64,000 nucleotides of DNA, from assembly GCF_030551255.1 (NCBI RefSeq), contig NZ_CP130630.1:868001-932000 (forward strand). The letters run 5' to 3'. Each line of letters begins with the position of its first letter. Within the stretch, counting starts at the first letter, position 1. This document shows positions 34,340 to 63,253 of the stretch, piece after piece. Source of the stretch: Streptomyces sp. NL15-2K (GTDB lineage: Bacteria > Actinomycetota > Actinomycetes > Streptomycetales > Streptomycetaceae). The position numbers were made by a program, and so were the translations under genes. A model generated the notes under the pieces. The model was not told the DNA's origin, did not search any database, and saw nothing but the letters and a program-made list of their open reading frames with translations.

Positions 34340-34356
34340 TACGAAGGAGCCCTCAA

Positions 34357-35544: not shown

Positions 35545-35590
35545 ACTGCGGGCCCGTCTGTGGCTGGTCGCGCAGTTCCCCGCGCCCTTG
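35545..35590. repeat. Streptomyces-type interspersed repeat (short form)
   Basis: The segment CGGGCCCGTCTGTGGCTGGT followed by CGCGCAGTTCCCCGCGCCC lies in the 111-bp gap between rhaI and the aldolase gene. It shares its ends with the repeat at 30481-30553 in inverted orientation, lacking the central hairpin. Both copies therefore sit inside rhamnose operons. Confidence 0.6.
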
Positions 35591-35628
35591 AGTTCACTCA
35601 CCCTCTCTCATGTAAGGACTGAAGGTTC

Positions 35629-39110: not shown

Positions 39111-39129
39111 CGGGGACTCCCCCGGGCCC

Positions 39130-39310: not shown

Positions 39311-39324
39311 GCCCGGACTACGCT
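39295..39324 (+). promoter_or_regulatory. candidate lutABC promoter using the MITE end
   Basis: TCGACA (39295-39300), 5 of 6 matches to a -35 box, lies in the right terminal repeat of element C. An 18-bp spacer later is TACGCT (39319-39324), a common Streptomyces -10 box. A start near 39331 would leave a short leader with ribosome site AGGAG before the lutA ATG. The assignment is by inspection only. Confidence 0.4.
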
Positions 39325-39358
39325 TCACTCATCCGATGATCGACTACTAGGAGCCGCG

Positions 39359-40114
39359 ATGCGTGTCGCCCTGTTCCTGACCTGCGTCAACGACACGCTC
39401 TATCCGGACACCGGGCGCGCCGTGGTGAAACTGCTGACCAGACTGGGCGTCGAGGTCGACTTCCCGATGGCCCAGACCTGCTGCGGACAGGCGCACTACA
39501 ACACCGGATACCGGCATGAGGCGGAACCGCTCGCCCGGCATTTCTCCGATGTCTTCCGGGACTATGAGGCGATCGTGACGCCGTCCGGGTCGTGCGGTGC
39601 GATGGTGCGGGAGTTGTACCCGCGGATGGGTGAGCGAGCCCGGGCCGAAGGACGCGGGGACACCCTCTCCGCCACCTTGGCGCCGGTCGTGCCGAAGACG
39701 TACGAGCTCACGGAGTTCCTGGTGGACGTGCTGGGGGTGACGGACGTCGGGGCGTACTACCCGCACACGGTGACGTACCACCCGACCTGCCACGGGCTGC
39801 GCGGGCTGGGCCTGGGCGAGCGGCCCCGGCGGCTGCTCCAGGCCGTGAAGGGGCTGGAGCTGGTCGAGTTGCCGGGGGCGGACGAGTGCTGCGGCTTCGG
39901 CGGCACCTTCGCCCTGAAGAACTCCGATGTCTCGGCGGCGATGGGCGCCGACAAGGTGCGCAACGCCGAGTCGACCGGTGCGGATGTGCTGTGCGCGGCG
40001 GACAACTCCTGTCTGATGCACATCGGCGGGACGATGACCCGGCTCAGGACGGGCATGCGGCCCGTGCACCTCGCGGAGATCCTGGCGAGCACGGAGGAGG
40101 AACCGGCGGCATGA
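39359..40114 (+). CDS. lutA: L-lactate utilisation protein A, (Fe-S)-binding oxidoreductase
   Basis: A 251-residue protein with two cysteine-rich CCG domains: FPMAQTCCGQAHYNTGYRH (about residues 35-53) and ADECCGFGGTFALKN (about 177-191), with HPTCHGLRGL between. These bind iron-sulfur or related clusters in GlpC/HdrD/LutA proteins. LutABC together oxidise L-lactate to pyruvate at the membrane. AGGAG precedes the ATG, and the stop overlaps lutB by 4 nt. Confidence 0.92.
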   Translation: MRVALFLTCVNDTLYPDTGRAVVKLLTRLGVEVDFPMAQTCCGQAHYNTGYRHEAEPLARHFSDVFRDYEAIVTPSGSCGAMVRELYPRMGERARAEGRGDTLSATLAPVVPKTYELTEFLVDVLGVTDVGAYYPHTVTYHPTCHGLRGLGLGERPRRLLQAVKGLELVELPGADECCGFGGTFALKNSDVSAAMGADKVRNAESTGADVLCAADNSCLMHIGGTMTRLRTGMRPVHLAEILASTEEEPAA

Positions 40115-41598
40115 GCGGCACGTTCGTAGGAATGCCGGCCTTCCCGAAGGCCGCGCACGAGGCGGTCAACAACCCGACCCTGCGCGGCAATCTGCGCCAC
40201 GCCACGCACACGATCCGCGCCAAGCGGGCCAAGGCCGTCGCGGAGGTGTCCGACTGGGCGGAGTTGCGGGAGGCGGGCAAGCGGATCAAGGACCATACGC
40301 TCCGTCATCTCGACCACTACCTGGAGCAGTTGGAGGAGTCGGTCACGGCGGCGGGCGGCACCGTCCACTGGGCCGCCGACGCCGACGAGGCCAACCGGAT
40401 CGTGACCGAACTCGTCCAGCGGACCGGCGAGTCGGAGGTCGTCAAGGTCAAGTCGATGGCCACGCAGGAGATCGGACTCAACGAGGCCCTTCTCGAAGAG
40501 GGAATCCACGCCTACGAGACCGATCTCGCCGAACTGATCGTGCAGTTGGGCAAGGACCGGCCCTCGCACATCCTCGTCCCGGCGATCCACCGCAACCGGG
40601 GCGAGATCCGGGACATCTTCACGCGCGAGATGAGCGAGTGGGGCCGCCCCGCCCCCGAGGGCCTCACCGACACGCCCGCCGAACTCGCCGAGGCCGCCCG
40701 CCTCCACCTGCGCGAGAAGTTCCTGCGCGCCAAGGTCGGCATCTCCGGCGCCAATTTCATGGTCGCCGAGACCGGCACGCTGGTCGTCGTGGAGTCCGAG
40801 GGCAACGGGCGGATGTGCCTCACCCTGCCCGAGACCCTCATCTCGGTCGTCGGTATCGAGAAGATCGTGCCTACCTGGCGGGACCTGGAGGTGTTCCTGC
40901 AGACACTCCCCCGCTCCTCGACGGCCGAGCGCATGAACCCGTACACGTCGACCTGGACGGGTACGACAGACTCCGAGACGGCTGACGGCCCGCAGACCTT
41001 CCACCTGGTCCTGCTCGACAACGGCCGCACCGACACGCTCGCCGACGAGGTCGGCCGCCAGGCCCTGCGCTGCATCCGCTGCTCGGCGTGTCTGAACGTC
41101 TGCCCGGTGTACGAGCGGGCCGGCGGCCACGCGTACGGGTCGGTGTACCCGGGCCCGATCGGCGCCATCCTGAGCCCCCAGCTGCGGGGCACGGGCAGCG
41201 AGATCGACGCCTCCCTGCCGTATGCCTCGTCGCTGTGCGGTGCCTGCTACGAGGTGTGCCCGGTCGCCATCGACATCCCCGAGGTGCTGGTGCATCTGCG
41301 GGAGCGGGTCGTGGAGGGCGGGCCGGTGACGCGCGAGGGCAACAAGGTGGTGCTCAAGCCCGCGAAGGGGCACGCCGCCGAGCGGGCGGCCATGCGCGCG
41401 GCACGCTGGGCGTTCACGCGTCCGGGTGCCCTGCGCACCGGCCAGAGGCTGGCGTCGCGTACCCGACGCCTCCATCCGCGCACGCTTCCCGGCCCCGGCA
41501 GCGCGTGGAGCGGCACGCGGGATCTGCCATCGGTGCCGGCGGAGCCGTTCCGTGACTGGTGGCAGCGCACGAATGGCGGAAAGGACGGAGCGAAGTGA
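40111..41598 (+). CDS. lutB: L-lactate utilisation iron-sulfur protein B
   Basis: A 495-residue protein. The N-terminal 300 residues form a LUD domain (EVVKVKSMATQEIGLNEAL, GISGANFMVAETGTLVVVE). From about residue 320 two 4Fe-4S motifs follow, CIRCSACLNVCPVYERAGGHA and CGACYEVCPVAIDIPEV. This is the LutB/LldF layout. The ATG at 40111 overlaps the lutA stop (ATGA); an earlier in-frame start inside lutA is rejected. Confidence 0.93.
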   Translation: MSGTFVGMPAFPKAAHEAVNNPTLRGNLRHATHTIRAKRAKAVAEVSDWAELREAGKRIKDHTLRHLDHYLEQLEESVTAAGGTVHWAADADEANRIVTELVQRTGESEVVKVKSMATQEIGLNEALLEEGIHAYETDLAELIVQLGKDRPSHILVPAIHRNRGEIRDIFTREMSEWGRPAPEGLTDTPAELAEAARLHLREKFLRAKVGISGANFMVAETGTLVVVESEGNGRMCLTLPETLISVVGIEKIVPTWRDLEVFLQTLPRSSTAERMNPYTSTWTGTTDSETADGPQTFHLVLLDNGRTDTLADEVGRQALRCIRCSACLNVCPVYERAGGHAYGSVYPGPIGAILSPQLRGTGSEIDASLPYASSLCGACYEVCPVAIDIPEVLVHLRERVVEGGPVTREGNKVVLKPAKGHAAERAAMRAARWAFTRPGALRTGQRLASRTRRLHPRTLPGPGSAWSGTRDLPSVPAEPFRDWWQRTNGGKDGAK

Positions 41599-42272
41599 GC
41601 AGCAGGGAGCGGATCCTGGGCCGGGTGCGGCGCGCGCTGGCGGACGTGGAGGACGTACGACAGGACGACATGCCGTACGAGCAGGCGGTTCCCCGCGACT
41701 ACCTGCGCGAGCACGGTGACCGGAGTGTCGAGCAGACGGTGGATCTGCTGGCCGAGAACCTGGCGGACTACCGGGCGATCGTGCACCGCTGCACCGCCGC
41801 CGACCTGCCGGCGACGATCGCCGGGATGCTGGCCGCACGGGGCGCGAAGACGGTGCTCGTCCCGCCGGGCCTGGATCCGGAGTGGCTCGCGGCGGCGGAG
41901 GCCGAGCGGGTCCCCGACCGGGCGGAGAGCACCCCGCACGAGCTGGACCGGGTCGACAGCGTGATCACGGCTTGCGCGGTGGCCGTCGCCGAGACCGGCA
42001 CGATCGTGCTGGACGGTTCGCCCGACCAGGGGCGCCGCCGTATCAGCCTCGTCCCCGACCACCACGTCTGTGTCGTGCGGGTTCCCGAGCAGGTCGTCTC
42101 GTCGGTCCCCCAGGCCCTCGAACGCCTCGACCCGGCCCGCCCGTTGACCTGGATCTCCGGGCCGTCGGCGACCAGCGACATCGAGCTGGACCGGGTCGAG
42201 GGGGTGCACGGTCCGCGCACCCTGGAGGTCGTGCTGGTGGGCGGTCAGGCGAGCGCGGACGTCAGTTCGTAG
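41595..42272 (+). CDS. lutC: L-lactate utilisation protein C (LUD domain)
   Basis: A 225-residue LUD-domain protein, with RERILGRVRRALAD at the N terminus and the family core TACAVAVAETGTIVLDG and RRISLVPDHHVCVV. The GTG start overlaps the lutB stop (GTGA), completing a tightly coupled lutABC unit. Its 3' end overlaps the convergent rhamnosidase gene by 28 bp. In this setting its likely job is to consume the lactate formed from rhamnose. Confidence 0.9.
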   Translation: MSSRERILGRVRRALADVEDVRQDDMPYEQAVPRDYLREHGDRSVEQTVDLLAENLADYRAIVHRCTAADLPATIAGMLAARGAKTVLVPPGLDPEWLAAAEAERVPDRAESTPHELDRVDSVITACAVAVAETGTIVLDGSPDQGRRRISLVPDHHVCVVRVPEQVVSSVPQALERLDPARPLTWISGPSATSDIELDRVEGVHGPRTLEVVLVGGQASADVSS

Positions 42273-45200
42273 CGGCCGGACGGCAGCCGGTAGGAGGCGA
42301 CGCCGTCCGCGAAGCCGAGGTGTTCGACGCCGTCGACCCGGGACAGGGGTGTCCTGCCCTCGCGGACGGTGGACGGATCGGCGGTGGGAAGACGGAGGGT
42401 CGCGGTGCTGTTCGCGGGCACGGCGGCCCGGTAGGCCAGCTTCCGGCCGTTCACCTGCCACTCGCTGACGATCTCGCCGTACGGCGAGACATGTGACCCG
42501 CCCACATGCGTGATCTTCCCTGTCGGGTCGAGGTGCGGGCGCAGGAAGAAGTGCCGGAAGCCCGGGTGCGCCGGGTCCTTGGCGATGCCGGCCATGCTCT
42601 CGTACATCCACTCCATGATCGCGCCGTAGGAGTAGTGGTTGAACGAGTTCATGTCGACCGGGCCGAAGCCGTCCTCCTTGGAGTACGAGTTCCAGCGCTC
42701 CCAGATGGTGGTGGCGCCGTTGGACACGGAGTACAGCCAGGACGGCATCGCGTTCTGGTGCAGCAGCTTGTACGCCAGGTCGACGCGGCCCTCGTCGGTG
42801 AGGACGGGGGCGAGGACGTTCACGCCGAGGAAGCCGACGGAGAGGGTGTTCTCCGCGTACTTGACGCGCGTGCTGTCGGGGTGGGCCTTCTTGTAGGCCT
42901 CGCCGTTGGCGATGTTCTCGGCGAGCAGCTCGACGAGCCCGCGGCGCTGGGCCTGCGTGTCGTACAGGCCGAGCTTGAGGACCCACAGCAGGGCGGTCTG
43001 GGTGTCGTCCTCGGTCTTGCGCGGGCTGTCGCCGGGCGTGGGCGGCGGGTCGCCCAGGCTCGATCGGACCGTGATCCGGCCCGTGGTCGCGTCGGTGGCG
43101 AGGTACTTGGTGATGAAGGCCCGCTTGATCCGGGAGAAGAGCTGCTCGTAGGTGCGGATCTCGGCGGTGCGGCCGGTGGCGCGGGCCATGTCCGCCATGA
43201 GCCGGGCGCTGTAGCCGTAGTAGACGTCGCTGATGAGCTGGGTGCTGGTGTCCTGGAAGGCCAGCCAGTCGCCGAAGATCGCGCCCTGTCCGGCGTAGGT
43301 GTCGCCGGTGCGCCCCCGGATCCAGTCCATGTACGTCGTCATCGCGGTCCAGCTGCGGTCGATGACGGTGGTGTCGCCGGACATCTGCCACACCGTCCAC
43401 GGCACGACCACCCCGCAGTCCGCCCAACCGCTCGCCGGGACCGGCTGGTTGTAGCGGGCGCCGGGCGCGATCCAGGTGAACTGGGCGCCGTCCGCGCCGT
43501 AGGTGCGCTGCGAGTCGATCAGGGTGTCCTGGAAGTGGCTGAGGAAGTTGACGGCGTCGGCGTTGTACAGGCCGGTGTGGGAGAACAGTTGGGTGTCGCC
43601 GGTCCAGCCGCAGCGTTCGTCGCGCTGCGGGCAGTCGGTGGGCACCCAGAGGTAGTTGCCGCGCTGGCCCCAACGGACGTTGTTGATCAGCTGGTTGGTG
43701 TCGGGGTCGTTCGTGGTGATGGTGCCGATGTCGTTCAGGGCGGAGGTGGCGACCTTGCCGGTGAACTCGGTGAGGGTGACGGTGTCGGTCGCGGTGACGG
43801 AGACATAGCGGAAGCCGTAGAAGGTCAGCGAGTCCTGGTGGGTCTCGCCGTGCGGGTCGCCCTTGAGGACGTACGTGCTGGTCGCCTTGGCCGTGCGCAG
43901 GTTGGCGCGGTAGACCGAGCCGACGGGCCCGTCGGCGCCCGCGCTGGCGTCGTTGAGCATCTCGCCCGGCTTGAAGGTGACTTGGGCGCCCGCCGGGCCG
44001 CGCAGGGTGTAGCGGGGCACGCCGACCATGTTCTGGCCGAGGTCGATCACGGCGGTGTCGCCGGGGTGCAGCGTCACGGTGGCGGTGGCCGCCGCGGCCG
44101 GGTCGGTGACCGTGCGGGAGTCGTCGACGACGATGCGGCCCTTGCCGTCGGGGCTGCCGTCCTGGCCCGTCACGCCGGTGCAGACGGTGATCGAGTGCGG
44201 CTTTCGGTCCCACTCGGGCATCAGGCGGGCGCTCTCGCCGGGGTAGGCGACGAGTTTCGCGTCGGGGAAGGCGGTGGCGTGGTCGTGCTCCTCGGTGCCC
44301 GCCCATCCCGAGGTGTCGAAGCCGCCTGCGGTCCAGCCCTTCAGCTCCTTGCGGGCGTCGTAGGTCTGTCCGTCGTAGATGTCGTCGGCGCCGTGAGGGC
44401 CGGTGTCGGTGGCTTTCCAGTCGGTGCCGGGTGCGGTGACGACCGTCTGTTCGGATCCATCGGCGTACCGGATGAGGAGCTTGGCCTTGAGGGCGAGGCG
44501 GTTGCCGTCCGCGGAGTAGTAGACGCTGTTGTCGGAGATGCGGCCGTTGTACCAGCCGTTGCCGAGCACGGCCGCGAGGGTGACCTGCCGGCTGCCCGCC
44601 ACGAGGGTCGTGACGTCGTAGGTCAGGTAGTTGACGGTGGTGTCGTAGTTGGTCCAGCCCGGGGCCAGGAGTTCGTGGGTGGTGGAGTCGCCCTGCGGTA
44701 CGCAGACCCGGTGACCGTTGACGTAGGCGTCGTACACGCCGAGGGCGGTGATGTAGAGGCGCGCCTCACGGACTTGACGGCCCGTCAGGTCCGTCTGCCG
44801 TCGCAGGAGGGGTGCGCCGGGGGTGCCCGGTTCCTTGCCCGCCATGGTGATCCAGCGCGCGCCGGCCCAGCCGGTGACACCGTCGGTGCTGAGCAGGGCG
44901 GTCTCGAAGTGGGCGGTCGGGGCGGCGGGGACCACGCGGCCGTTCTCGTCCCAGACCGTCACCGCCCAGTGGTAGCGGGTGGAGGCGCGGAGCGCGGGTC
45001 CGGCATAGCGCACCGCGACCGAGTCGGGTGAGGTGACACGGCCGCTGTTCCAGACGTCCGCGCGGGCGGGGGTCAGCCGGTCGGGCGCGGTCGCCACCAG
45101 GATCCGGTACGCCGTCTGACGGCGGCCGCGGACCGGGGAGACCGTACGCCAGCCGAACCGCGGTCGTGGCGCGTCCACGCCGAGCGGGTTCGTGCGGTGC

Positions 45201-45370
45201 TCGACGGTCAGTCCCGTCACGGCGGTCCGGTGCGGAGCGGGTGCCGCCGAGGCCGTGGCCCCGGTACCGATGCCTCCGGCCATGGCCACGGGTACCGCCC
45301 CCAAAGCTGTCGTCAGGACCGTTCTGCGGCGCACCGTTCGGCGGGTCGAGTCGTTCACTCCGTCGTTCAT
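42245..45370 (-). CDS. secreted alpha-L-rhamnosidase (GH78)
   Basis: A 1041-residue protein with a Tat signal (RRTVRRRTVLTTALGA, cleavage near ASA-AP). The domain order is typical of GH78: an N-terminal fibronectin-like region (PRPRFGW), the Bac_rhamnosid_N jelly roll (ARLYITALGVYDAYVNGHRV), then the (alpha/alpha)6 catalytic barrel from about residue 550 with DCPQRDERCGWTGD, and a C-terminal beta domain. Retaining the DERCGW acid region suggests activity. It releases terminal L-rhamnose from plant glycans or glycosides. AAGGGA precedes the ATG at 45370. A TGTATCGATTCA operator-like site lies 27 bp upstream. Confidence 0.92.
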   Translation of the reverse strand: MNDGVNDSTRRTVRRRTVLTTALGAVPVAMAGGIGTGATASAAPAPHRTAVTGLTVEHRTNPLGVDAPRPRFGWRTVSPVRGRRQTAYRILVATAPDRLTPARADVWNSGRVTSPDSVAVRYAGPALRASTRYHWAVTVWDENGRVVPAAPTAHFETALLSTDGVTGWAGARWITMAGKEPGTPGAPLLRRQTDLTGRQVREARLYITALGVYDAYVNGHRVCVPQGDSTTHELLAPGWTNYDTTVNYLTYDVTTLVAGSRQVTLAAVLGNGWYNGRISDNSVYYSADGNRLALKAKLLIRYADGSEQTVVTAPGTDWKATDTGPHGADDIYDGQTYDARKELKGWTAGGFDTSGWAGTEEHDHATAFPDAKLVAYPGESARLMPEWDRKPHSITVCTGVTGQDGSPDGKGRIVVDDSRTVTDPAAAATATVTLHPGDTAVIDLGQNMVGVPRYTLRGPAGAQVTFKPGEMLNDASAGADGPVGSVYRANLRTAKATSTYVLKGDPHGETHQDSLTFYGFRYVSVTATDTVTLTEFTGKVATSALNDIGTITTNDPDTNQLINNVRWGQRGNYLWVPTDCPQRDERCGWTGDTQLFSHTGLYNADAVNFLSHFQDTLIDSQRTYGADGAQFTWIAPGARYNQPVPASGWADCGVVVPWTVWQMSGDTTVIDRSWTAMTTYMDWIRGRTGDTYAGQGAIFGDWLAFQDTSTQLISDVYYGYSARLMADMARATGRTAEIRTYEQLFSRIKRAFITKYLATDATTGRITVRSSLGDPPPTPGDSPRKTEDDTQTALLWVLKLGLYDTQAQRRGLVELLAENIANGEAYKKAHPDSTRVKYAENTLSVGFLGVNVLAPVLTDEGRVDLAYKLLHQNAMPSWLYSVSNGATTIWERWNSYSKEDGFGPVDMNSFNHYSYGAIMEWMYESMAGIAKDPAHPGFRHFFLRPHLDPTGKITHVGGSHVSPYGEIVSEWQVNGRKLAYRAAVPANSTATLRLPTADPSTVREGRTPLSRVDGVEHLGFADGVASYRLPSGRYELTSALA

Positions 45371-45396
45371 GCCGTCATCCCTTCGGCCGTCGGAGT

Positions 45397-45408
45397 TGTA
45401 TCGATTCA
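45397..45408 (-). promoter_or_regulatory. candidate rhamnose operator 3 (rhamnosidase)
   Basis: TGTATCGATTCA differs at one base from the perfect palindrome upstream of rhaI (34328). It lies 27-38 bp upstream of the GH78 start codon. A weaker arm pair, TTGAA and TTCAA around ACCG, is at 45519-45532. The shared site argues that the rhamnosidase is controlled with the catabolic operon although it is 10 kb away. Confidence 0.6.
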
Positions 45409-45548
45409 GTCCGATCGCCGGTTGAACATAGTGGCGCCTGTGACACGTGTCCACGGCCCCAACAGGACAATTTACGAACAGAGTTGAACGGAAACCGTCA
45501 AGCCGACCCGATGGCCCTTTGAAACCGTTCAAAAACGGAATGCTGCCT

Positions 45549-53092: not shown

Positions 53093-54070
53093 TCAGGACG
53101 CGGGCCCGCAGAGCCGGGCGAAGCGCTCGGCGTCGACGTTCCCGCCCGAGATGATCGCGCCGACCCGGCGCGGGAGGGGGCCCGCCCGGCCGGAGAGCAG
53201 GGCGGCCAGCGGGGTGGCACCGCTGGGCTCGACGACGATCTTCAGGCGTTCGAACGCGAACCGCATCGCGTCCCGGATCTCGTCGTCGGACACCAGGGCG
53301 ATGGCGTCGACGAGCAGCCGGTTCATGGAGAAGGTCAGTTCGCCGGGGGTGTGCAGCGCCTGGCCGTCGGCGATGGTGTGCGGCACGGGGATCGCGACGC
53401 GCCGGCCCGCCTCCAGAGACCGCTTCGTGTCGTCCCCGGTCTCCGGCTCGACGCCGATCACGCGCACGCCCGCGTACAGGCCCTTGGCCGCCGTGGCGCT
53501 CCCGGCGATCAGTCCGCCGCCGCCGACCGGTGCCATCAGGGCGTCCAGCTCCCCCACCTCTTCGAGGAGTTCGAGCGCGGCCGTGCCCTGCCCGGCGATC
53601 ACGTGCGGGTGCTCGTACGGCGGGATCAGCGCCAGGCCCCGTTCGGCGGCCAGGGCCTCGGCGATGGCCATTCGGTCGCCGCTGTAGCGGTCGTACGACA
53701 CGATCTCGGCGCCGTAGCCCGCGGTGGCGTCCCGCTTGAAGGGCGGGGCGTCCTCGGGCATGACGATCACCGCGGTCGTGCCCAGTTCCCGCGCGGCCAG
53801 GGCGACGGCCTGGGCGTGGTTCCCGGAGGAGTAGGCGGCGATGCCCCGGGCCAGCTGCTCGGGAGTGAGCCGGGAAGCCGCGTTGTAGGCGCCGCGGAAC
53901 TTGAAGGCCCCCACACGCTGGAAGTTCTCGCACTTGAGGTGGACCTCGGCGCCGACGAGCGCGTCCAGCGTGCGCGAGCGCAGCACCGGCGTGCGGTGTG
54001 CGACGCCCTTGAGCCGGGCGGCCGCGTCACGGATGTCGTCGAGGGTGACCGGCGGGGTGGTGGTCGTCAC
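53093..54070 (-). CDS. PLP-dependent serine/threonine dehydratase family protein
   Basis: A 325-residue fold-type II PLP enzyme. FKFRGAYNA (Lys about residue 55 binds PLP), SSGNHAQAVALAA (phosphate and substrate loop) and VGGGGLIAG (PLP phosphate loop) are intact. No C-terminal ACT domain is present, so it is the catabolic or racemase-like form (threonine dehydratase, serine racemase or 3-hydroxyaspartate dehydratase). The GTG start overlaps the stop of the PAS-HTH regulator gene, coupling it to that regulator and suggesting an amino-acid catabolic role. Confidence 0.88.
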   Translation of the reverse strand: MTTTTPPVTLDDIRDAAARLKGVAHRTPVLRSRTLDALVGAEVHLKCENFQRVGAFKFRGAYNAASRLTPEQLARGIAAYSSGNHAQAVALAARELGTTAVIVMPEDAPPFKRDATAGYGAEIVSYDRYSGDRMAIAEALAAERGLALIPPYEHPHVIAGQGTAALELLEEVGELDALMAPVGGGGLIAGSATAAKGLYAGVRVIGVEPETGDDTKRSLEAGRRVAIPVPHTIADGQALHTPGELTFSMNRLLVDAIALVSDDEIRDAMRFAFERLKIVVEPSGATPLAALLSGRAGPLPRRVGAIISGGNVDAERFARLCGPAS

Positions 54071-54765
54071 GCGTGCCCTCCAGCGGAGTCGGAAGTCGTG
54101 TCGGTCGCGGCCCGGGCCTGGGCGAGGTAGCTGTACGCGGAGGCGCGGGAGATGCCGAGCCGGCCGGCCACCTGCTCGACCGACCGGCGCACCGCGAACA
54201 CCCCCCGCTCGTCCAGGCCGCGGAACAGCTCCAGGCGTGCCGCCCGGTCGAGGCCCGCCCAGCCCTGGTTCTGTCCCAGCTGGTGGTCGTCGAGGATGAC
54301 GTCGACGACGGAATCGATGTCGTTGCCGAAGGTGGTGACCGGCAGTTCGGCGGAGGTCCGGCCGATGCCCGCGAGCCCGCCGAGCAGGGCGTGGGCTTCG
54401 GTGACCGCGGTGACGTCCAGGTTCACGCACACCGCGCCGAACACCGCGCCGGTGGAGTCCCGCAGCACCATCGTGGACGACTTGACGGTCTTCCCGGTCC
54501 GGGTGCGCGTCACGTAGTTCAGCTCGTCGCCCGCCTCCTCGCCCCGGGCGACGATCCGCATGCCGATCTCGCTCATGGCACCGCCCACGGCACGACCCGT
54601 CACCGAACCGGCGAGGGCGACCACCGACTCCTCCGGCCGTCGGTAGTCATGGAGGACCACCTCGCACATCGGGCCGAAGGTCGCCGCGATCCCGTCGACG
54701 ACGGGCGTCAGCGCGGCGATGATCGCGTCGCGCTCGGCCTCCACGCTCGCTTCGTCCACCGGCAC
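54067..54765 (-). CDS. YheO-like PAS/HTH transcriptional regulator
   Basis: A 232-residue regulator. Residues 15-125 are a YheO-like PAS domain (AATFGPMCEVVLHDYRRPEESVVALAGSVTGRAVG, FGAVCVNLDVTAV). Residues 175-220 form an HTH_22 domain (RLELFRGLDERGVFAVRRSVEQVAGRLGISRASAYSYL). This is the layout of DauR, the repressor of D-arginine catabolism in Pseudomonas. It is the first gene of a two-gene unit with the dehydratase. GTG start with GGAGGCGG upstream. Confidence 0.85.
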   Translation of the reverse strand: MPVDEASVEAERDAIIAALTPVVDGIAATFGPMCEVVLHDYRRPEESVVALAGSVTGRAVGGAMSEIGMRIVARGEEAGDELNYVTRTRTGKTVKSSTMVLRDSTGAVFGAVCVNLDVTAVTEAHALLGGLAGIGRTSAELPVTTFGNDIDSVVDVILDDHQLGQNQGWAGLDRAARLELFRGLDERGVFAVRRSVEQVAGRLGISRASAYSYLAQARAATDTTSDSAGGHA

Positions 54766-54866
54766 ACCCCCGCCTCCCTGCCACTGCCCGGATCCTTAGA
54801 CTACAGGTCCAGGTGCTGGACGAACAGTCCAACATCGGCCTTTCCCCGCCACCCTTGTCCGGGATC

Positions 54867-54901
54867 TTGACGACAGTGATGTTACCGGTAACATCACTGT
54901 C
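54867..54901 (+). promoter_or_regulatory. promoter with 30-bp perfect palindromic operator
   Basis: TTGACG (54867-54872) and TAACAT (54889-54894) form a promoter with a 16-bp spacer. The sequence from 54872 to 54901, centred on GTTACC-GGTAAC, is a perfect 30-bp palindrome covering the spacer, the -10 box and the start region. The central CG and the ATGTTACC/GGTAACAT arms fit LacI/GntR(gnt)-type operators. The LacI gene at 60531 closes the same operon and is the likely repressor. A position over the promoter predicts tight repression. Confidence 0.8.
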
Positions 54902-54926
54902 CGTCGGAGCGATTGAGAGGTGTGCT

Positions 54927-56126
54927 GTGCCGGGGGAAAAGCGCGTCGTCGACACCAGGCCCATGGCTTCCGCACCGCCGGACGCCCCGGTCTTCAGCCC
55001 CGCCGCCGTGGTCGCCTCCTGCGTGGGCTTCGTCCTCATCGGCGCCCTCCAGGCCCTGTACGGCCCGGCCATCCCCGCCTTCCGCGAGGAGTTCGGGCTG
55101 ACGCCCTCGGGCGCCGGGCTGGGGCTGAGCGCCCACTTCGTCGGCGGCGTGGCCGGGGTGCTGCTGTTCGACCGGCTCTACGGCCGGATCGGCAACCGGC
55201 AGATCCTCGGCGCCTCGTACCTGCTGATGGCCGTCGGCGCGGCGGGCTTCGCGCTGGCGCCGAACTGGCCCACCGCACTGGCCATGGCCCTCCTCGCCGG
55301 GCTCGGCTTCGGCGGCATCGACTACGGCCTCAACCAGCTGTTCGCCGTCGGCTTCGGCCACCGCTCGACCGCGATGCTGAACATCCTCAACGCGCACTTC
55401 GGCATCGGCGCGATCCTGGGTCCGGCACTGATCGGCGCGGTCGGCTCCGAGCACTACCCGGCGGTCTTCCTCGGTTTCGCGCTCGCCAACCTGCCGCTGC
55501 TGCTGTGCCTGCGGGGTGTACGCGACCGCGCGCCGGGGCCGCAGTCCGGCCCCGAGACCGACGGCGGGCGGGTCCTCGGCCGCAGCCTGGGCTCCGTACT
55601 CGCGATGTTCGTCGCGCTCTACGTCCTGCACGTCGGCATCGAGGCGGGCGTCGGCGGCTGGGAGCCCACGCATCTGGAGACCGTCGGTTACGGCGCCGGG
55701 GTCGCCGCGACCGCCACCTCCGTCTACTGGCTGATGATGACCGTCGGCCGGTTCCTGGTCGCCCCGATCGCCCTGCGCTTCTCCGCCCAGGCCATCATCA
55801 CGGCCTCGTGCGCCGGTATGACGGTCTGTCTGCTGCTCGCCGCGATACCGGCCCTGGCCCCGTACGCGTACGCCGGTGTGGGGCTGTTCATCGCCCCGAT
55901 CTTCCCCACCGGCCTGCCCTGGCTGCACCGCGCCGCCCCGCGTGCCCGGCGGGCGGGAGCCCTGGTCATCGCCGCGTCCATGGTCGGCGGCGTCGCCGCG
56001 GGACCGGCGCTCGGCAAGGCCATCGAAGAGGCCGGCATCCGCGCGGTCCCGCTCCTGCTGTGCGGCGTCTCGGCGTTGTGCCTGGCCGCGACGCTCTGGC
56101 TGATCCGCAATACCCGAACCCGCTGA
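54927..56126 (+). CDS. MFS transporter, probable galactoside/sugar permease
   Basis: A 399-residue major facilitator protein with 12 predicted helices in two halves. The loop 2-3 motif appears as FDRLYGRIGNRQ and the helix-4 region is GLGFGGIDYGLNQLF. It resembles the FucP/YcaD-like or general sugar MFS branch more than drug efflux pumps. First gene of the GH35 operon, so a galactoside or oligosaccharide is a likely substrate. The GTG start follows GAGAGG by 6 nt; an internal ATG at 54963 is an alternative. It lies 26 bp after the palindromic operator. Confidence 0.82.
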   Translation: MPGEKRVVDTRPMASAPPDAPVFSPAAVVASCVGFVLIGALQALYGPAIPAFREEFGLTPSGAGLGLSAHFVGGVAGVLLFDRLYGRIGNRQILGASYLLMAVGAAGFALAPNWPTALAMALLAGLGFGGIDYGLNQLFAVGFGHRSTAMLNILNAHFGIGAILGPALIGAVGSEHYPAVFLGFALANLPLLLCLRGVRDRAPGPQSGPETDGGRVLGRSLGSVLAMFVALYVLHVGIEAGVGGWEPTHLETVGYGAGVAATATSVYWLMMTVGRFLVAPIALRFSAQAIITASCAGMTVCLLLAAIPALAPYAYAGVGLFIAPIFPTGLPWLHRAAPRARRAGALVIAASMVGGVAAGPALGKAIEEAGIRAVPLLLCGVSALCLAATLWLIRNTRTR

Positions 56127-56235
56127 GCCCGCTGAACCCACGCCCCGGCCGAACCGATGAACCCCGCGCCCCGGCCGAACCCGCCCAACCCTCTGGACCA
56201 AGGCCCCGCATTCCGAACTCGAAGGGAAGCTCCGC

Positions 56236-57996
56236 ATGCCCGCTCTGACCACGTCGTCCGACGGTTTCCTCCTGCACGGCGAGCCGTTCCGGATCATCTC
56301 CGGGGCACTGCACTACTTCCGCGTCCACCCGGACCAGTGGACCGACCGGCTGCGCAAGGCGCGGCTGATGGGGCTCAACACCGTCGAGATGTACCTGCCG
56401 TGGAACCTGCACGAGCCCGAACCCGGCACGCTCGTCCTCGACGGCATGCTCGACCTGCCCCGCTTCCTGAGCCTGGCGCAGGCGGAGGGCCTGCACGTCC
56501 TGCTGCGCCCCGGGCCGTACATCTGCGCCGAATGGGACGACGGCGGGCTGCCCGCGTGGCTCCTCTCGGACCCCGGCATCCGGCTGCGCACCAGCGACCC
56601 GCGCTTCACCGAGGCCTTCGACCGCTACCTCGACCAGCTGCTGCCCCCGCTGCTGCCGCACCTCGCCGCGAACGGCGGACCGGTGATCGCCGTACAGGTG
56701 GAGAACGAGTACGGGGCCTACGGCGACGACACCGCGTACCTCAAGCATGTCGAACAGGCCCTGCGCTCCCGCGGTGTCGACGAGTTGCTGTTCACCTGCG
56801 ACCAGGCCAACGCCCAGCACCTGGCCGCCGGCAGCCTGCCCGGCACGGTCGCCACCGGCACCTTCGGCAGCCGGGTCGAGGAACATCTGGCCGCGCTGCG
56901 CGCCCACCGGCCCGAGGGCCCGCTGATGTGCGCGGAGTTCTGGATCGGCTGGTTCGACCACTGGGGCGGGCCCCACCATGTGCGGTCGGCCGAGGACGCG
57001 GCGGCCGACCTGGACCGGCTGTTGTCCGCGGGGGCCTCCGTCAACATCTACATGTTCCACGGCGGCACCAACTTCGGCTTCACCAACGGTGCCAACCACA
57101 AGCACGCCTACGAGCCGACCGTGACGTCGTACGACTACGACGCCCCGCTCACCGAATGCGGCGACCCGGGCCCCAAGTACCACGCGTTCCGCGAGGTCAT
57201 CGCCCGGCACGCGTCCGTCCCCGAGGAGCCGGCTCCCGCGCCGGGCCCCAAACTCCCGCCCACCGCTGTCGAGTTGGACCGCCGGGCGCCGCTGCTGCCG
57301 TATCTCCGCACCCTGGACGGAGCGGTGCGCACCCAGGACCCGGTGACGATGAACGAGCTCGGGGCGCACTCCGGGTACGTCCTCTACCGCACCACCGTTC
57401 CCGCCTCCGGCGACGGTCTGCTGCACTTCGCGGGCGGCGTCGGCGACCGCGCCCAGGTCTTCGTGGACGGTGCCTCCGTCGGCGTACTGGAACGCAAGCG
57501 CCACGACGAGACGCTGCCCGTGCGGGTGCCGAAGCCCGGTGCCGTCCTCGAGGTCCTGGTCGAGAACCAGGGCGGGGTCAACTACGGGCCGCGCATCGGG
57601 GCGCCGAAGGGACTGCTCGGCCCGGTGTCCTTCCAGGGCGCCGCCCTGCACGACTGGGAGTGCCGGCCCCTCCCGCTGGGCGACCTGGGCGCGGTGCCGT
57701 TCGTGCCGTCCGACGCGGACGCGGACGCCGTGCCCGCCTTCCACCACGGGACGTTCGAGGTGGACACCCCGGCCGACACGTTCCTCGCCCTGCCCGGCTG
57801 GACCAAGGGCCAGGCGTGGGTCAACGGCTTCCATCTCGGCCGCTACTGGAACCGCGGCCCGCAGCACACGCTGTACGTCCCCGGCCCGGTGCTGCGCCCC
57901 GGCACCAACGAGCTCGTCGTGCTGGAGCTGCACGCCACGACCGGCACCCGCGCGCAGCTCACCGACACCCCCGACCTCGGACCGGAGAACGACTGA
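56236..57996 (+). CDS. beta-galactosidase (GH35)
   Basis: A 586-residue glycoside hydrolase of family 35 without a signal peptide, hence cytoplasmic. The TIM barrel starts at FLLHGEPFRIISGALHYFR; the acid/base Glu is about residue 158 in VENEYGAYG and the nucleophile about 234 in CAEFWIGWFDHWG. Two beta domains follow (from about 340 and 500), including QVFVDGASVGVLE and WVNGFHLGRYWNRGPQ. It should hydrolyse imported beta-galactosides. Good ribosome site GAAGGGAAG before the ATG; 109 bp after the MFS gene. Confidence 0.92.
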   Translation: MPALTTSSDGFLLHGEPFRIISGALHYFRVHPDQWTDRLRKARLMGLNTVEMYLPWNLHEPEPGTLVLDGMLDLPRFLSLAQAEGLHVLLRPGPYICAEWDDGGLPAWLLSDPGIRLRTSDPRFTEAFDRYLDQLLPPLLPHLAANGGPVIAVQVENEYGAYGDDTAYLKHVEQALRSRGVDELLFTCDQANAQHLAAGSLPGTVATGTFGSRVEEHLAALRAHRPEGPLMCAEFWIGWFDHWGGPHHVRSAEDAAADLDRLLSAGASVNIYMFHGGTNFGFTNGANHKHAYEPTVTSYDYDAPLTECGDPGPKYHAFREVIARHASVPEEPAPAPGPKLPPTAVELDRRAPLLPYLRTLDGAVRTQDPVTMNELGAHSGYVLYRTTVPASGDGLLHFAGGVGDRAQVFVDGASVGVLERKRHDETLPVRVPKPGAVLEVLVENQGGVNYGPRIGAPKGLLGPVSFQGAALHDWECRPLPLGDLGAVPFVPSDADADAVPAFHHGTFEVDTPADTFLALPGWTKGQAWVNGFHLGRYWNRGPQHTLYVPGPVLRPGTNELVVLELHATTGTRAQLTDTPDLGPEND

Positions 57997-60407
57997 TGGC
58001 CCACCCGCACCACCTGCGCGTCCCCTCCCCCGCCGGTCCCCCGCTCACCGGGCATCTGCCCTTCGCCGACGCGCCCGGGGTGCCCGATCCCATCGAGGTC
58101 ACCAGCCGTTGGCTCACGCGCGGCGGCCGTCCCTGGTTCCCGGTCTCCGGCGAGTTCCACTACTCCCGCTACCCGGCCGCGGAGTGGGAGGAGGAGCTGC
58201 TGAAGATGAAGGCGGGCGGGGTGAGCGCCGTCGCCAGCTACATCATCTGGATCCACCACGAGGAGATCGAGGGCCGTGTCCGCTTCGACGGCGACCGCGA
58301 CCTGCGCGGCTTCGCCGAGCTGTGTGCCCGGCACGGCCTGGACTTCATCCCGCGCATCGGTCCCTGGTCCCACGCGGAGGTCCGGGGCGGCGGCCTGCCC
58401 GACTGGCTGCTGGCCCGCGACTGCACCCCGCGCACCGACGACCCGGCCTATCTGGAGCCCGTGCGTGCCTGGTTCGCGGCCATCGCCGAGCAGTTGCACG
58501 GCCTGGACCGGGCCCACGGCGGCCCGATCGTGGCGATCCAGATCGAGAACGAGCTCTACGACCAGCCCGGCCACCTCCTCACCCTCAAGCGGATGGCCCA
58601 GGAGGCCGGGCTGAGCGCCCCGCTGTGGACGTCGACCGCCTGGGGCGGGGTCCGGCTCCCGCCGGACGAGTTGCTTCCGCTGTACGGCGGCTACACCGAG
58701 ACCTTCTGGACCGAGGCCGACGGCGGCTGGCCCGACACCTGCCGCAAGCACTTCTTCTTCACCCACCAGCGCGACGACGAGGGCATCGGCGCCGACCTCA
58801 GGCCGACGACCGTGCGCGGCGGCACCCCGGACGCCTACGCCGGCCGTTTCCCGTGGGCCACCTGCGAGTTGGGCGGCGGCATGGCGGTGTCGTACCACCG
58901 CCGGCCGCGCGTCGACGCCGACGACATCGGCGCGCTCGGCCTCACCAAGATCGGCTGCGGCTCGGTCTGGCAGGGCTTCTACATGTTCCACGGCGGCACG
59001 AACCCGACCGGGGAGCTCACCACCCTGCAGGAGTCCCACGCCACCGGCTATCCCAACGACCTGCCGGTCCTGACGTACGACTTCCAGGCGCCGCTCGGCG
59101 AGTACGGCCAGTACCGGCGGACGTACCACGAACTGCGGCTCCAGCACCTGCTGCTGGCCGACTTCGGCGACCGCATCGCACCCATGGAGTCCGTGCTGCC
59201 GGAGCGCCGGCCGAGCGGGCAGGACGACCGCGACACCCTGCGGTGGGCCGTGCGCACCGACGGCGCCTCGGGCTTCCTGTTCGTCAACAACCACCAGCCG
59301 CACGAGCCGCTGCCCGACCATCCCGAGACGTCGTTCACCGTCGAATTCCCCGGTGACGGAGGCTCCTTGACCCTGCCGACCCTCCCCGTCACCGTGCCCC
59401 GCGGCGCCTACTTCTGCTGGCCGCTGCGGCTCGACGTGGCGGGTCTGCGGCTGGAGTGGGCCACCGCCCAGCCGGTGTGCACGGTCGACGTGGACGGCCG
59501 TACGGTCCTGGTGCTGGCCGCGACCGAGGGCATCGACCCCGAACTGGCCCTGGACGCTTCGACGGTGACGTCGGTCAGCACGCCGTCCGGGGACGTCACT
59601 CCCGTCGGCGGCCGGGTGCTGGTCAGCGGACTGCGACCCGGTACCGACGCGCTGGTCGAGGTGGAGACGGCGGACGGCGGCCGGGTCGGTCTGCTGGTCC
59701 TGGACGCGGCGACGGCACGCACCGCCTACCGGGGTGTGGCCTGGGGCGCCGAGCGGCTGGTGCTGTGCGAGGCGGGTGTCGTCTTCGACCCGTCCGGCCG
59801 GGAGGAGGTACGGCTGCACGGCTCGGACGCGCCGGTGTCGTTCGCGGTGCTGCCCGCGCCGGAGCAGGCGCCGGTGGTGGACGGGGCGGCGGTGAGCGCG
59901 GCGGCGGACGGGATGTTCACCCGGTACGCGGTCGAGGTCGACACAGATGCCGGTGCCGGTGCCGGTGCCGGTGACACCTCAGTGCCGGTCACCCTGGTAC
60001 GGCCCGCCGGGCCCGCCCCCGACACCGCCACCGGCGTGCTGGACCGGGCGAGCGCGCCCGCGGACAAGCACTTCGACACCGTGGCCGCCGAGTACCGCGT
60101 CGACGTCCCGGACGACCTGCCGCCGGGGACGATCCTGCGCCTGCACTGGAGCGGGGACGTGGGGCGGGCGTACGTGGGCGACACGCTCGTCGCCGACCAG
60201 TACTTCTCCGGGCTCGCCTGGGACATCGGCGTCGACCGGCTGCCCGCCGACACCCTGCGCGCCGAGGGCCTGCGGCTGCGGGTGCTGCCGCTGCACCCTG
60301 ACGCGCCCGTGTACGTGCCCCGGGAAGCGGCCGGTGCCGCAGAGAGCGTCGCCATCACGCACGCCGAGTGGATCACCCGCCGCCGCTGGTCCGTCCGGGC
60401 CGGCTGA
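57996..60407 (+). CDS. GH35-like beta-galactosidase (large form)
   Basis: An 803-residue relative of GH35 without a signal peptide. The barrel begins PWFPVSGEFHYSRYP; the acid/base Glu is about 186 in IENELYDQPGH and the nucleophile about 291 in CELGGGMAVSYH. Two later jelly-roll domains follow, the last with HWSGDVGRAYVGDTLVADQYF. An internal GAGAGAGD tract from a 6-bp repeat (about 59950-59975) separates them. It is distinct from the preceding GH35 enzyme, so the two may act on different linkages. TGATG overlaps the previous stop by 1 nt, showing coupling. Confidence 0.85.
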   Translation: MAHPHHLRVPSPAGPPLTGHLPFADAPGVPDPIEVTSRWLTRGGRPWFPVSGEFHYSRYPAAEWEEELLKMKAGGVSAVASYIIWIHHEEIEGRVRFDGDRDLRGFAELCARHGLDFIPRIGPWSHAEVRGGGLPDWLLARDCTPRTDDPAYLEPVRAWFAAIAEQLHGLDRAHGGPIVAIQIENELYDQPGHLLTLKRMAQEAGLSAPLWTSTAWGGVRLPPDELLPLYGGYTETFWTEADGGWPDTCRKHFFFTHQRDDEGIGADLRPTTVRGGTPDAYAGRFPWATCELGGGMAVSYHRRPRVDADDIGALGLTKIGCGSVWQGFYMFHGGTNPTGELTTLQESHATGYPNDLPVLTYDFQAPLGEYGQYRRTYHELRLQHLLLADFGDRIAPMESVLPERRPSGQDDRDTLRWAVRTDGASGFLFVNNHQPHEPLPDHPETSFTVEFPGDGGSLTLPTLPVTVPRGAYFCWPLRLDVAGLRLEWATAQPVCTVDVDGRTVLVLAATEGIDPELALDASTVTSVSTPSGDVTPVGGRVLVSGLRPGTDALVEVETADGGRVGLLVLDAATARTAYRGVAWGAERLVLCEAGVVFDPSGREEVRLHGSDAPVSFAVLPAPEQAPVVDGAAVSAAADGMFTRYAVEVDTDAGAGAGAGDTSVPVTLVRPAGPAPDTATGVLDRASAPADKHFDTVAAEYRVDVPDDLPPGTILRLHWSGDVGRAYVGDTLVADQYFSGLAWDIGVDRLPADTLRAEGLRLRVLPLHPDAPVYVPREAAGAAESVAITHAEWITRRRWSVRAG

Positions 60408-60424
60408 GACGCCGTCCCACGCGT

Positions 60425-60461
60425 GGTCCCGAGGGCTCGGCTCCCCCGAGTCCTCGGGACC
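60425..60461 (+). terminator. strong hairpin between GH35 and lacI genes
   Basis: Two 16-nt arms, GGTCCCGAGGGCTCGG and CCGAGTCCTCGGGACC, pair with one G-T mismatch around a CTCCC loop. It lies 18 bp after the GH35 stop and should terminate or attenuate the operon before the LacI gene. A TATGCT -10 box just downstream (60470-60475) may give the regulator its own promoter. Confidence 0.7.
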
Positions 60462-60530
60462 GTCCCGCCTATGCTGTGGTCCTGCCGGGCGGGACCAGGC
60501 CGCCGTAACGACGTCGAGGAAACTGCCACC

Positions 60531-61595
60531 ATGACCCGAAGCGCCGCCGACGGAGCGGTTCCGAAGTGGCGCAGCAGACGGAACTTCGCGGGCTCGCGTC
60601 CCGTGATGGACGACGTGGCCCGGCTGGCCGGAGTCTCCAAGCAGACCGTCTCCCGCGTGCTCAACGACCACCCGTCCGTCCGCCCCGCGACACGCGAGGC
60701 GGTCGTCCAGGCCATGCGCACACTCGGCTACCGGCCCAGCCGCAGCGCCAGGTCGCTGGCCAGCGGGCGAACCCGGATGCTCGGGGTCATCTCCTTCGAC
60801 GCCGCCCGCTACGGACCCGCCTCCATCCTCACCGCGATCAACACGGCGGCGCAGGAGGCCGGCTACCTGGTGAGCTCCATCGCCCTCGACACGGCCGACC
60901 ACGACACGGTGGTCGAGGCCGTGGACCGGCTGTCGGCCGAGGGCGCGGACGGCGTGATCGCCATCGCCCCGCAGCTGTGGGTGGGCCGGGCGCTGGCCGA
61001 CACCCACCTCGACACCCCGCTGGTGGTGCTGGAGAACGGCCTCGACACCGAGACCCACCTGGTCACCGGCGACTCCCGGGCCGGGGCCCGCAAGGCCACC
61101 GAGCACCTGCTCGGGCTCGGCCACTCCACCGTCTGGCACCTCGCGGGCCCCACCGGCTGGACCTCGGCCGACCATCGGCGGACCAGTTGGCGTTCGACCC
61201 TGGAGGCGGCCGGTGCCCACGTCCCCGAGCCGCTCGTCGGGGACTGGAGCGCCGACTCCGGCTACGACCTGGGGCGCCGGCTGGCCGCCCGGCCGGACGT
61301 CACGGCGGTGTTCGTCTCCAACGACCAGATGGCGCTCGGCGTCCTGCACGCCCTGCACGAGGCCGGGCGGCCGGTGCCGGACGAGGTCAGCGTGGTCGGC
61401 TACGACGACATCCCGGAGGCCGCCCATCTGCTGCCTCCGCTGACCACCGTCCGTACCGACTTCGCGGAGATCGGCACCCGCTCCCTGCGGCTCCTGCTGA
61501 ACCGCATCGACGGCTCCACCGAGCCGCCGAAGCCCGAGTCGCTCGTCCCCGTCGACCTCGTCGTCCGCCGCAGCAGCGGACCGGCGCCGCGCTGA
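60531..61595 (+). CDS. LacI family regulator of the GH35 operon
   Basis: A 354-residue regulator. A basic N-terminal arm (about 24 residues) precedes the HTH and hinge (residues 26-78, VMDDVARLAGVSKQTVSRVLN and SARSLASGRTRMLG), followed by a periplasmic-binding-like effector domain with HLAGPTGWTSADHR and VGYDDIPEAAHLLPPLTTVRTD. The second helix sequence (SKQTVSRVLN) is typical of LacI proteins that bind operators with a central CG, in line with the 54872-54901 palindrome. GAGGAAA lies 10 nt before the ATG. It converges on the membrane protein gene. Confidence 0.9.
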   Translation: MTRSAADGAVPKWRSRRNFAGSRPVMDDVARLAGVSKQTVSRVLNDHPSVRPATREAVVQAMRTLGYRPSRSARSLASGRTRMLGVISFDAARYGPASILTAINTAAQEAGYLVSSIALDTADHDTVVEAVDRLSAEGADGVIAIAPQLWVGRALADTHLDTPLVVLENGLDTETHLVTGDSRAGARKATEHLLGLGHSTVWHLAGPTGWTSADHRRTSWRSTLEAAGAHVPEPLVGDWSADSGYDLGRRLAARPDVTAVFVSNDQMALGVLHALHEAGRPVPDEVSVVGYDDIPEAAHLLPPLTTVRTDFAEIGTRSLRLLLNRIDGSTEPPKPESLVPVDLVVRRSSGPAPR

Positions 61596-61603
61596 GGGTC
61601 GGA

Positions 61604-63253
61604 TCAGCAGCCGGCCGAGCCCGACGGCGAGGCGGACGCGAGGTATGCCGAGTCGATCCGGTACACGCCCGGAGTGTCGACGGTCAGGCGCGTGAACTCG
61701 CCCTCCTCCCGCAGGCAGGCGCCCTCGACGCGCAGCCACGGCGAGTACGCCACCCGCACGGTCACCGAACCCGGCTTCGGTATCCGTACGTCGAGCGCGG
61801 CGTCCGAGGTGCGCACGACGGTGGCGGGCGCCGACACCAGCGGCACCGCGTCACGCACCCGGTACACCCGCCAGTGCGCGTCGCTCCACACGGGTTCCAG
61901 CCACGCGGGCAGGCTGTCGCGCAGCAGGCGTGCCTCGGCCTCCCCGAACCGGTCGGGTTCGGCTTCGGGCAGCACGACGAAGCCGACGGCCCAGTGGTCC
62001 AACCAGGCGCGGTACGTCGTCGGGGTGAGCGTGCCGTCGTAGAAGAGGCGGCCGCGGGTCATGTCGAGCTGGGTGTTCCAGCCGCGTGCCAGATTCACGT
62101 ACGGGGCCAGCACGGCGGACTCGCGGTGGTCGTGGGCCGGGACGACCTCCACCCGGGTGCGGTCGGCGCCGAGCCGGTCCAGGGCCCGTACGACACCCTG
62201 GCTGTCGGCGGCCCAGGCCGGGACCTGCCCCGTCCCCCGCAGGAACGAGGTGGGCGTGCCCGATCCCAGCCAGAGCAGGGAGCCGGCGAGCGCCACGGCC
62301 AGCGCACCGCGCCCGTACCGGGGCCGCCGGTCCGCCGAGAGCACGGCGGCGAGCAGCACGGCGGGCGCGAACAGCAGGGCGAACCGCTCCACGTTGGCGC
62401 CGATCGGCGAGGGGATCAGGTACGTCAGGAGGACACCCACCGCGTATACGGCACCGCCCAGCCGCACCACCCGCCAGCGGCGCGGCGAGAAGACCGCCAC
62501 GGCCACGCCCAGCAGCGCGGGCCACGGGATCCGACCCGCCGCCATCGGCTCCTCCCCATGGAAGGGGAACATCAGCGTGGTCGTCCCCACCACCAGGAAC
62601 GGCGGGACCGTCAGCGCGGCGGCCCGCTTCCAGTCGCGGAGCAGGCCGTAGGCCGCGCCCGCCACGACGAGGAAGAGCCCGGCCACCGGGCTGCCCGCCG
62701 TCGCGAGCATCGCGTACCCGGCGGCCAGCCACACGCGCCGCTCACCCACCAGCAGCACACAAGCGGCGAGAGCGAAGGCGACGCCGAGCGCGAAGGTCAC
62801 GCGTCCCGCCGCGATGTTGACCCAGAGGCCGAACGCGGCCATCAGGGCCGGAGGCAGCGGGCGCCGGATCCCGGACCGTTCGAAGAGGACCGCGGCCAGC
62901 CACCCGGCGGCCAGTCCGGAGGCGACGCCGATCGTGCGCACGCCGAAGAAGCCCATCAGGTACGGGGAGATCACGCTGTAGTTCGCGGTGTGGATCCCGC
63001 CGAACCAGAACAGGCCGTAGGCGGAATCGCCGTGCTCGGCGGCGAACCGTGCCCAGGTCTCCTGGGCCGCGAGATCTCCGCCGCCGTTGGCGCGGAAGAG
63101 CGCCCACACCAGATACAGCGGCAGCATGGTCACGGTGGCGAGCAGCGGCACACGTCGACGACGCAGAAACGATGCGACCCGGCGGTACGGCGGCTTCCGA
63201 GGCGGGGCGGCGATGTCCGCCGGGGCAGGGGCCGACGCGGCACGAACTGTCAT
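61604..63253 (-). CDS. polytopic membrane protein of unknown function
   Basis: A 549-residue protein. A basic N-terminal tail (RRVASFLRRRR) precedes about ten hydrophobic helices between residues 36 and 345, with FWFGGIHTANYSVISPYLM and GLWVNIAAGRVTFALGVAFAL. The C-terminal 200 residues are soluble and extracellular, with VVPAHDHRESAVLAPYVNLARGWNTQLDM and a DxxAVGFVVLPEAEPD segment. The layout is like glycosyltransferase-type (GT-C) integral membrane proteins, but no catalytic signature is clear. The role is unknown. Confidence 0.7.
   Translation of the reverse strand: MTVRAASAPAPADIAAPPRKPPYRRVASFLRRRRVPLLATVTMLPLYLVWALFRANGGGDLAAQETWARFAAEHGDSAYGLFWFGGIHTANYSVISPYLMGFFGVRTIGVASGLAAGWLAAVLFERSGIRRPLPPALMAAFGLWVNIAAGRVTFALGVAFALAACVLLVGERRVWLAAGYAMLATAGSPVAGLFLVVAGAAYGLLRDWKRAAALTVPPFLVVGTTTLMFPFHGEEPMAAGRIPWPALLGVAVAVFSPRRWRVVRLGGAVYAVGVLLTYLIPSPIGANVERFALLFAPAVLLAAVLSADRRPRYGRGALAVALAGSLLWLGSGTPTSFLRGTGQVPAWAADSQGVVRALDRLGADRTRVEVVPAHDHRESAVLAPYVNLARGWNTQLDMTRGRLFYDGTLTPTTYRAWLDHWAVGFVVLPEAEPDRFGEAEARLLRDSLPAWLEPVWSDAHWRVYRVRDAVPLVSAPATVVRTSDAALDVRIPKPGSVTVRVAYSPWLRVEGACLREEGEFTRLTVDTPGVYRIDSAYLASASPSGSAGC

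Follow-up and report, generated by a model that had tools for sequence, protein, structure and literature searches.

We consider it quite probable that the window (the whole stretch of 64,000 nucleotides of Streptomyces sp. NL15-2K DNA that was analysed) carries a local beta-galactoside catabolic operon that is repressed by a LacI-family protein through a core operator of 16-18 bp, and that the outer arms that complete a perfect 30-bp palindrome in its promoter are a lineage-specific extension, with template switching as its likeliest, though unproven, origin. This would be an ordinary LacI regulon with a well-supported operator; neither this operator nor a Streptomyces LacI-GH35 regulon was found described in the one open-licence literature collection that we searched.

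Gene order and putative promoters of the cluster

The operon, its regulator gene and the elements between them are arranged as follows:

54867..54894, + strand: sigma-70-like promoter TTGACG-16-TAACAT, the sole consensus match within 54700-61700
54872..54901, no strand: 30-bp perfect palindrome with arms GACAGTGATGTTACC/GGTAACATCACTGTC, 100% complementary and without spacer
54879..54894, no strand: operator core ATGTTACCGGTAACAT, conserved, with the next three pairs weakly G/C, T/A and G/C
54927..56126, + strand: MFS permease, 399 aa (PF07690, 104.7 bits)
56236..57996, + strand: GH35 enzyme a, 586 aa, BgaC-like (PF01301, 392.1 bits), no signal peptide by eye
57996..60407, + strand: GH35 enzyme b, 803 aa, divergent (PF01301, 169 bits in two stretches), no signal peptide by eye
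60425..60461, + strand: hairpin with a 16-bp stem, -35.4 kcal/mol, without a T run; probable end of the operon transcript
60462..60495, + strand: lacI promoter-like element CTATGCTG, flanking partial GC-rich inverted repeat GTCCCGC...GCGGGAC
60531..61595, + strand: LacI-family repressor, 354 aa, with K17, Q18 and R22 in E. coli LacI numbering (PF00356, PF13377)

The first-pass annotation had described a 30-bp palindrome without mismatches that overlies the spacer and -10 region of the operon promoter, and this description is exact at 54872-54901, with TTGACG-16-TAACAT lying beneath the palindrome. Matches to the promoter consensus arise by chance at 0.2 per shuffle of the region 54700-61700. 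No further copy of the palindrome with up to 3 mismatches turned up in the window or in 100 shuffles, and the genome search for additional copies that had been proposed as a check found exactly one occurrence of the inner 14-mer in the organism's own 12.4-Mb genome, and this favours a local regulator with a single target operon. A role of the palindrome as an RNA element was rejected because the -10 sits inside it, so that a transcript from this promoter begins only after the palindrome.

For the MFS permease we chose a GTG start inside a listed open frame that begins at 54813, and no close solved relative of this protein was found. Both GH35 proteins score above the curated Glyco_hydro_35 cut-off of 27 bits. 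The best solved relative of GH35a is 4mad (585 bits over residues 6-582), with which both catalytic-glutamate motifs align at what we take to be the motif positions; that of GH35b reaches 112 bits only, and its candidate IENE and CELGG motifs were recognised by eye. At least 3 more genes with a stretch above the cut-off lie elsewhere in the same genome, at 0.46, 3.49 and 6.10 Mb. The LacI protein exceeds the cut-offs of both of its family domains (the N-terminal LacI HTH, PF00356, with 72.5 bits, and the Peripla_BP_3 effector domain, PF13377, with 125.8 bits) and matches NF007075 below cut-off.

A search with the LacI protein returned 176 relatives, and the best 80 loci were used for comparison (78 with Streptomyces in their titles and 2 with Actinobacteria bacterium). 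Next to the operon, a PALP enzyme and a YheO-like PAS/HTH regulator (53093-54765) are present in 28/80 and 30/80 of these loci, respectively. A membrane protein encoded downstream of lacI (61604-63253) has no match in the 80 loci.

The first-pass annotation had further seen the four genes as one packed unidirectional set. Their order, MFS-GH35-GH35-lacI, stands, and the start of GH35b overlaps the stop of GH35a at 57996; the packing does not hold throughout, given 109 nt between the MFS gene and the first GH35 gene and 123 nt, containing the 16-bp-stem hairpin, between the last GH35 gene and lacI. Some 50-nt stretch below -25 kcal/mol, often another hairpin, lies within 160 nt before lacI in 68 of the 80 loci. 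The motif CTAT[G/C]CTG is present in the same interval in 72/81 cases (the 80 loci plus the window); for 53 of these 72 its distance to the ATG is 61-64 or 70-71 nt. Some relatives carry CTATCCTG in place of CTATGCTG. The CTATGCTG region is promoter-like and possibly a second regulatory site; the consensus search of 54700-61700 found no -35 match at this putative promoter. Since lacI is set apart from the operon by a stable hairpin followed by a conserved sequence that resembles a promoter, it is probably its own transcription unit, with read-through possible, and the idea of lacI as the last gene of a single packed unit finds no support in that form.

Conservation of the operator core with operon and regulator

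An exact 12-mer core, GTTACCGGTAAC, occurs in 71/80 loci (the best 80 of 176), and all 71 copies are followed on the same strand by an MFS or GH35 homolog that starts at most 298 bp downstream. Judged by coordinates, the nine loci that lack the core comprise 7 truncated at a contig end, L060, whose site has one mismatch, and L076, with lacI but no operon homologs. By a strict cut, 43 of the 80 loci contain MFS, GH35a and GH35b, 10 contain MFS and GH35a, 9 contain both GH35 genes, and 18, contig ends among them, contain other subsets.

In an independent scan, the 16-mer turned up in 48/392 genomes of the same genus (the organism's own included), once in each. The sequence around these 48 sites was available as 3-kb loci for 30, with 1 kb for 11, and from the earlier set for 7. 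Had most copies of the palindrome in other Streptomyces preceded unrelated genes, its assignment to LacI would have fallen; as it is, 47 of the 48 copies of the 16-mer adjoin an MFS or GH35 homolog with at least 40% identity, and the 48th (L169, with 1 kb fetched) shows a weak MFS match and has a LacI ortholog about 5 kb away. Of 26 genomes tested among the 48, 25 encode a LacI ortholog with 77-100% identity no more than 7 kb away from the site. In G009, site and operon homologs are present, and no LacI was found at E<=1e-90. A looser 14-mer, searched in another sample, gave 2 sites in the genus for which the surrounding 1.5 kb showed no operon homologs. The same holds for 8 sites with this core palindrome (L190-L194, L203, L205, L211) from a different genus of the order, so that the half-site evidently serves in other contexts as well. 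The annotation's assignment of the palindrome to LacI as the operator of this operon is borne out for the core, which is conserved together with the operon and with LacI; the core is well supported as the predicted binding site.

When 83 distinct sites were aligned, pairs 1-6 did not vary because the search core fixes them, symmetry was seen in 79/83 at pair 7 and in 68/83 at pair 8, and pairs 9-11 showed weak preferences for G/C, T/A and G/C. The conserved putative operator is the inner 16-18 bp, of which only ATGTTACCGGTAACAT is strongly kept. From the start of TTGAC to the operator centre the distance is 20 bp in 52/82 sites and 23 bp in 20/82, and the motif lies elsewhere or is absent in 10/82; a -35 at a fixed distance from the centre would agree with a repressor that sterically blocks the promoter. 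The LacI dimer, whose gene is probably read from a promoter of its own, would bind the 16-18 bp core and cover the spacer and -10, and would in this way block the start of the MFS-GH35-GH35 transcript by RNA polymerase, as the position and conservation of the core suggest.

The recognition residues K17/Q18/R22 are invariant in 80/80 orthologs. A paralog in the same genome, 45% identical, has Y17/Q18 and adjoins two copies of TGTGACCGGTCACA, which stand as tandem palindromes before its gene (L002/L003, G000:C1:8471460-8471500); the TGTGACCGGTCACA motif occurs in 7/61 genomes searched. With Y17/Q18 beside TGTGACCGGTCACA in the paralog and K17/Q18 beside GTTA here, the change from Y to K appears to go with that from GTGA to GTTA, as a natural specificity pair. 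The half-site of the lac operator, with Y17/Q18 in its repressor, points the same way.

Variable symmetry beyond the core

Perfect symmetry spans 12-36 bp among the 71 sites, with the floor of 12 bp set by the search core, and reaches at least 16 bp in 58 of them. Expressed as half-lengths with the number of sites in brackets, the values are 6 (3), 7 (10), 8 (21), 9 (21), 10 (3), 11 (5), 12 (1), 13 (3), 14 (1), 17 (1) and 18 (2). The longest sites (L023 and L058 with 36 bp, L043 with 34 bp, L042 with 28 bp) differ in the sequence of their outer arms, and of the 58 sites whose symmetry reaches 16 bp or more, 42 extend by no more than one pair beyond that. Given this range and the differing outer arms, the 30-bp perfection seems to be a lineage-specific extra and no property of the operator. 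The first-pass annotation had taken it to signal very tight repression, and we abandoned length as such a sign because symmetry varies over 12-36 bp between species at orthologous sites whose repressors have identical recognition residues. The variation also suggests that, of the 30 bp, the outermost 12-14 would not be needed for recognition and may be best described as an addition, particular to this lineage, to a short palindrome that is conserved.

It is therefore unlikely that the full 30 bp form the operator, with LacI contacting up to 15 bp per side and perfection selected for tight repression. The arm preferences at positions 9-11 (left/right G 53/C 66, T 31/A 40 and G 46/C 43, of 83) would agree with such contacts, and so would the fact that long symmetric sites are commoner than chance. 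However, LacI-family dimers contact about 20 bp, and beyond position 11 the arms of L023, L058, L043 and L042 share no letter, which disfavours selection for extra contacts because shared letters would then be expected; besides, 42/58 sites stop at one further pair or fewer although K17/Q18/R22 are identical throughout.

How far chance could account for the long runs was assessed on the same 71 sites that had prompted the symmetry hypothesis, leaving out L086-L100, for which the search pattern had already required symmetric flanks, and the window itself. On this basis, at least 4 further pairs beyond pair 8 were observed in 8/58 sites, compared with 0.63 by permutation (reached in 0 of 20000) and 0.62 in simulations on the LacI tree (0 of 1500), and at least 9 further pairs in 3/58, compared with 0.05 by permutation (1 of 20000) and 0.001 by tree simulation (0 of 1500). 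Summed over positions 9-20, the matched pairs show no clear excess on the tree, with 154 of 1500 simulations reaching the observed value. Symmetry arrives in whole runs or hardly at all.

These numbers bear on the idea that the -35 TTGACGG happens to be mirrored by a CCGTCGGAG-like stretch that commonly follows the operator, the rest being luck. In several of the longest sites the symmetry does stop right at the GAC of the -35 (L023 and L058, and L170 nearly), but the pairs between core and -35 must match as well, and column-preserving permutation and tree simulation hardly ever reach the counts, so that we regard coincidence as improbable. Outer symmetry might also be kept for DNA shape, with cruciform or hairpin extrusion under supercoiling modulating the promoter: such selection would produce symmetry without sequence conservation and an excess of perfect runs, both of which are seen, yet most orthologs should then show the symmetry, whereas it is absent in 42/58 and scattered on the LacI tree. 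We hold this explanation to be improbable.

Hairpin-templated (template-switch) copying of one arm yields runs of any sequence and is favoured for this reason; template-switch homogenisation is the likeliest single cause of the outer symmetry, although unproven and, taken by itself, less likely than not. In the same 71 sites, perfect arms run on more often than chance would have it while their sequence is not conserved, and this is how we would recognise the process. Homogenisation of short inverted repeats by template switching is an established process (PMC8604942), and the likeness to the case described there lies in perfect arms of changing sequence round a kept core; that case concerns yeast strains, whereas here the process would have acted between species and at a bacterial operator. 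Nothing on point about template switching at operators was found in one open-licence literature collection. The 19 distinct sites that were found later contain the L058-type 36-bp sequence again (2/19) and the near-perfect L170 (17 of 18 pairs), and otherwise 8 or 9 pairs; with no new perfect long palindrome among them, they add no independent support. A comparison of arms by eye along the LacI tree found no clean one-arm rewriting between sisters; the candidates are L022 and L054, plus L097 outside the tree, none of them clean.

As for control operators, long extension was seen in 0/32 CebR-like sites and in 0/9 distinct sites of the paralog motif, and a DasR-like control motif, in the form that we presume for it, had no exact match in 41 genomes. 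Within 1.6 Mb of the organism's own genome, 7 spacerless perfect palindromes of at least 24 bp were counted vs 0.5 per Markov simulation, and 2 of at least 30 bp vs 0 in 8 simulations. A perfect 30-bp palindrome is thus rarer than chance models allow, yet not unique. Examples from the 1.6 Mb (L213-L292) are L264, with a palindrome of 40 bp, and L275, with one of 32 bp. Two of the 7 palindromes lie inside likely ORFs, and the excess exists both inside and outside ORFs. This excess in the 1.6-Mb sample suggests a process beyond this operator, though it may have other causes. We tentatively propose, as one possibility that others may well displace, that short operators seed palindrome growth, with hairpin-templated copying repeatedly rewriting the adjacent promoter DNA so that each lineage acquires its own long palindrome and has its spacer and start region changed in one step.

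Inducer, substrate and related systems

The positions R197, W220, N246, Q248 and D274 of the E. coli LacI pocket are kept in 80/80 orthologs and S193 in 77/80, while D149 is not kept in the LacI of the window; we take all seven to be galactose contacts. The beta-galactoside theme of the first-pass annotation gains from these pocket residues, which resemble those of E. coli LacI, and from the two GH35 proteins. A beta-galactoside inducer is likely, judging from the pocket, and may differ from that of E. coli LacI because D149 is not kept. A galactose-containing sugar or its product, imported by the MFS permease, would release LacI, and the two apparently cytoplasmic GH35 enzymes would remove galactose, as expected for their family.

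The annotation had also connected the operon with arabinogalactan side chains and with a nearby rhamnose island:

26429-45454: rhamnose island, with a LacI regulator, a BNR_4 protein, a mutarotase, a sugar-binding protein, an isomerase-like protein, a kinase, an aldolase-dehydrogenase and a bacterial alpha-L-rhamnosidase-domain protein

Its isomerase-like gene and the operator are about 14-31 kb apart in 13/26 genomes and far apart in the other 13/26, which have kept the operator. The link thus survives as a weak one, and the island was rejected as a necessary partner.

Compared with E. coli lac, the system shares the LacI fold, Q18/R22 and most of the presumed galactose-contact positions, as well as an operator in the promoter and the pairing of a permease with a galactosidase-family enzyme. 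It differs in residue 17 (K17, not Y17) and in the half-site (GTTA, not GTGA), in using MFS and GH35 proteins in place of LacY and GH2, and in having the regulator gene downstream. The lac-repressor type combines a tetramerisation tail with several operators, whereas here the alignment ends at residue 349 of 354 without a C-terminal tetramer helix, and there is a single operator, other sites within 2 mismatches not being beside the operon.

CebR-type LacI-family sugar regulators of Streptomyces likewise use a short perfect palindrome. The CebR motif, which we take to be TGGGAGCGCTCCCA, differs in occurring up to 12 times per genome and in 35/41 genomes, whereas the operator described here is found once per genome, and also in the absence of long extension from its 32 sites. 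Among the enzymes, GH35a is homologous over its full length to the GH35 proteins of Bacillus circulans (4mad, presumably the enzyme named BgaC) and Streptococcus pneumoniae (4e8c), while the cluster here adds the far more divergent GH35b. Gal-beta-1,3-GlcNAc was studied as a ligand of the 4mad and 4e8c enzymes by docking and dynamics, according to PMC6637243.

Taken at this strength, the analysis provides an operon that is found in many Streptomyces with its regulator, its operator and a probable class of inducer, and it offers a natural Y17/K17 specificity pair for recognition by LacI. It also implies that the strength of an operator can hardly be judged from how far its perfect symmetry extends. 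If template switching did produce the outer arms, bacterial operators would be a place to watch a mutation process remodel promoters.
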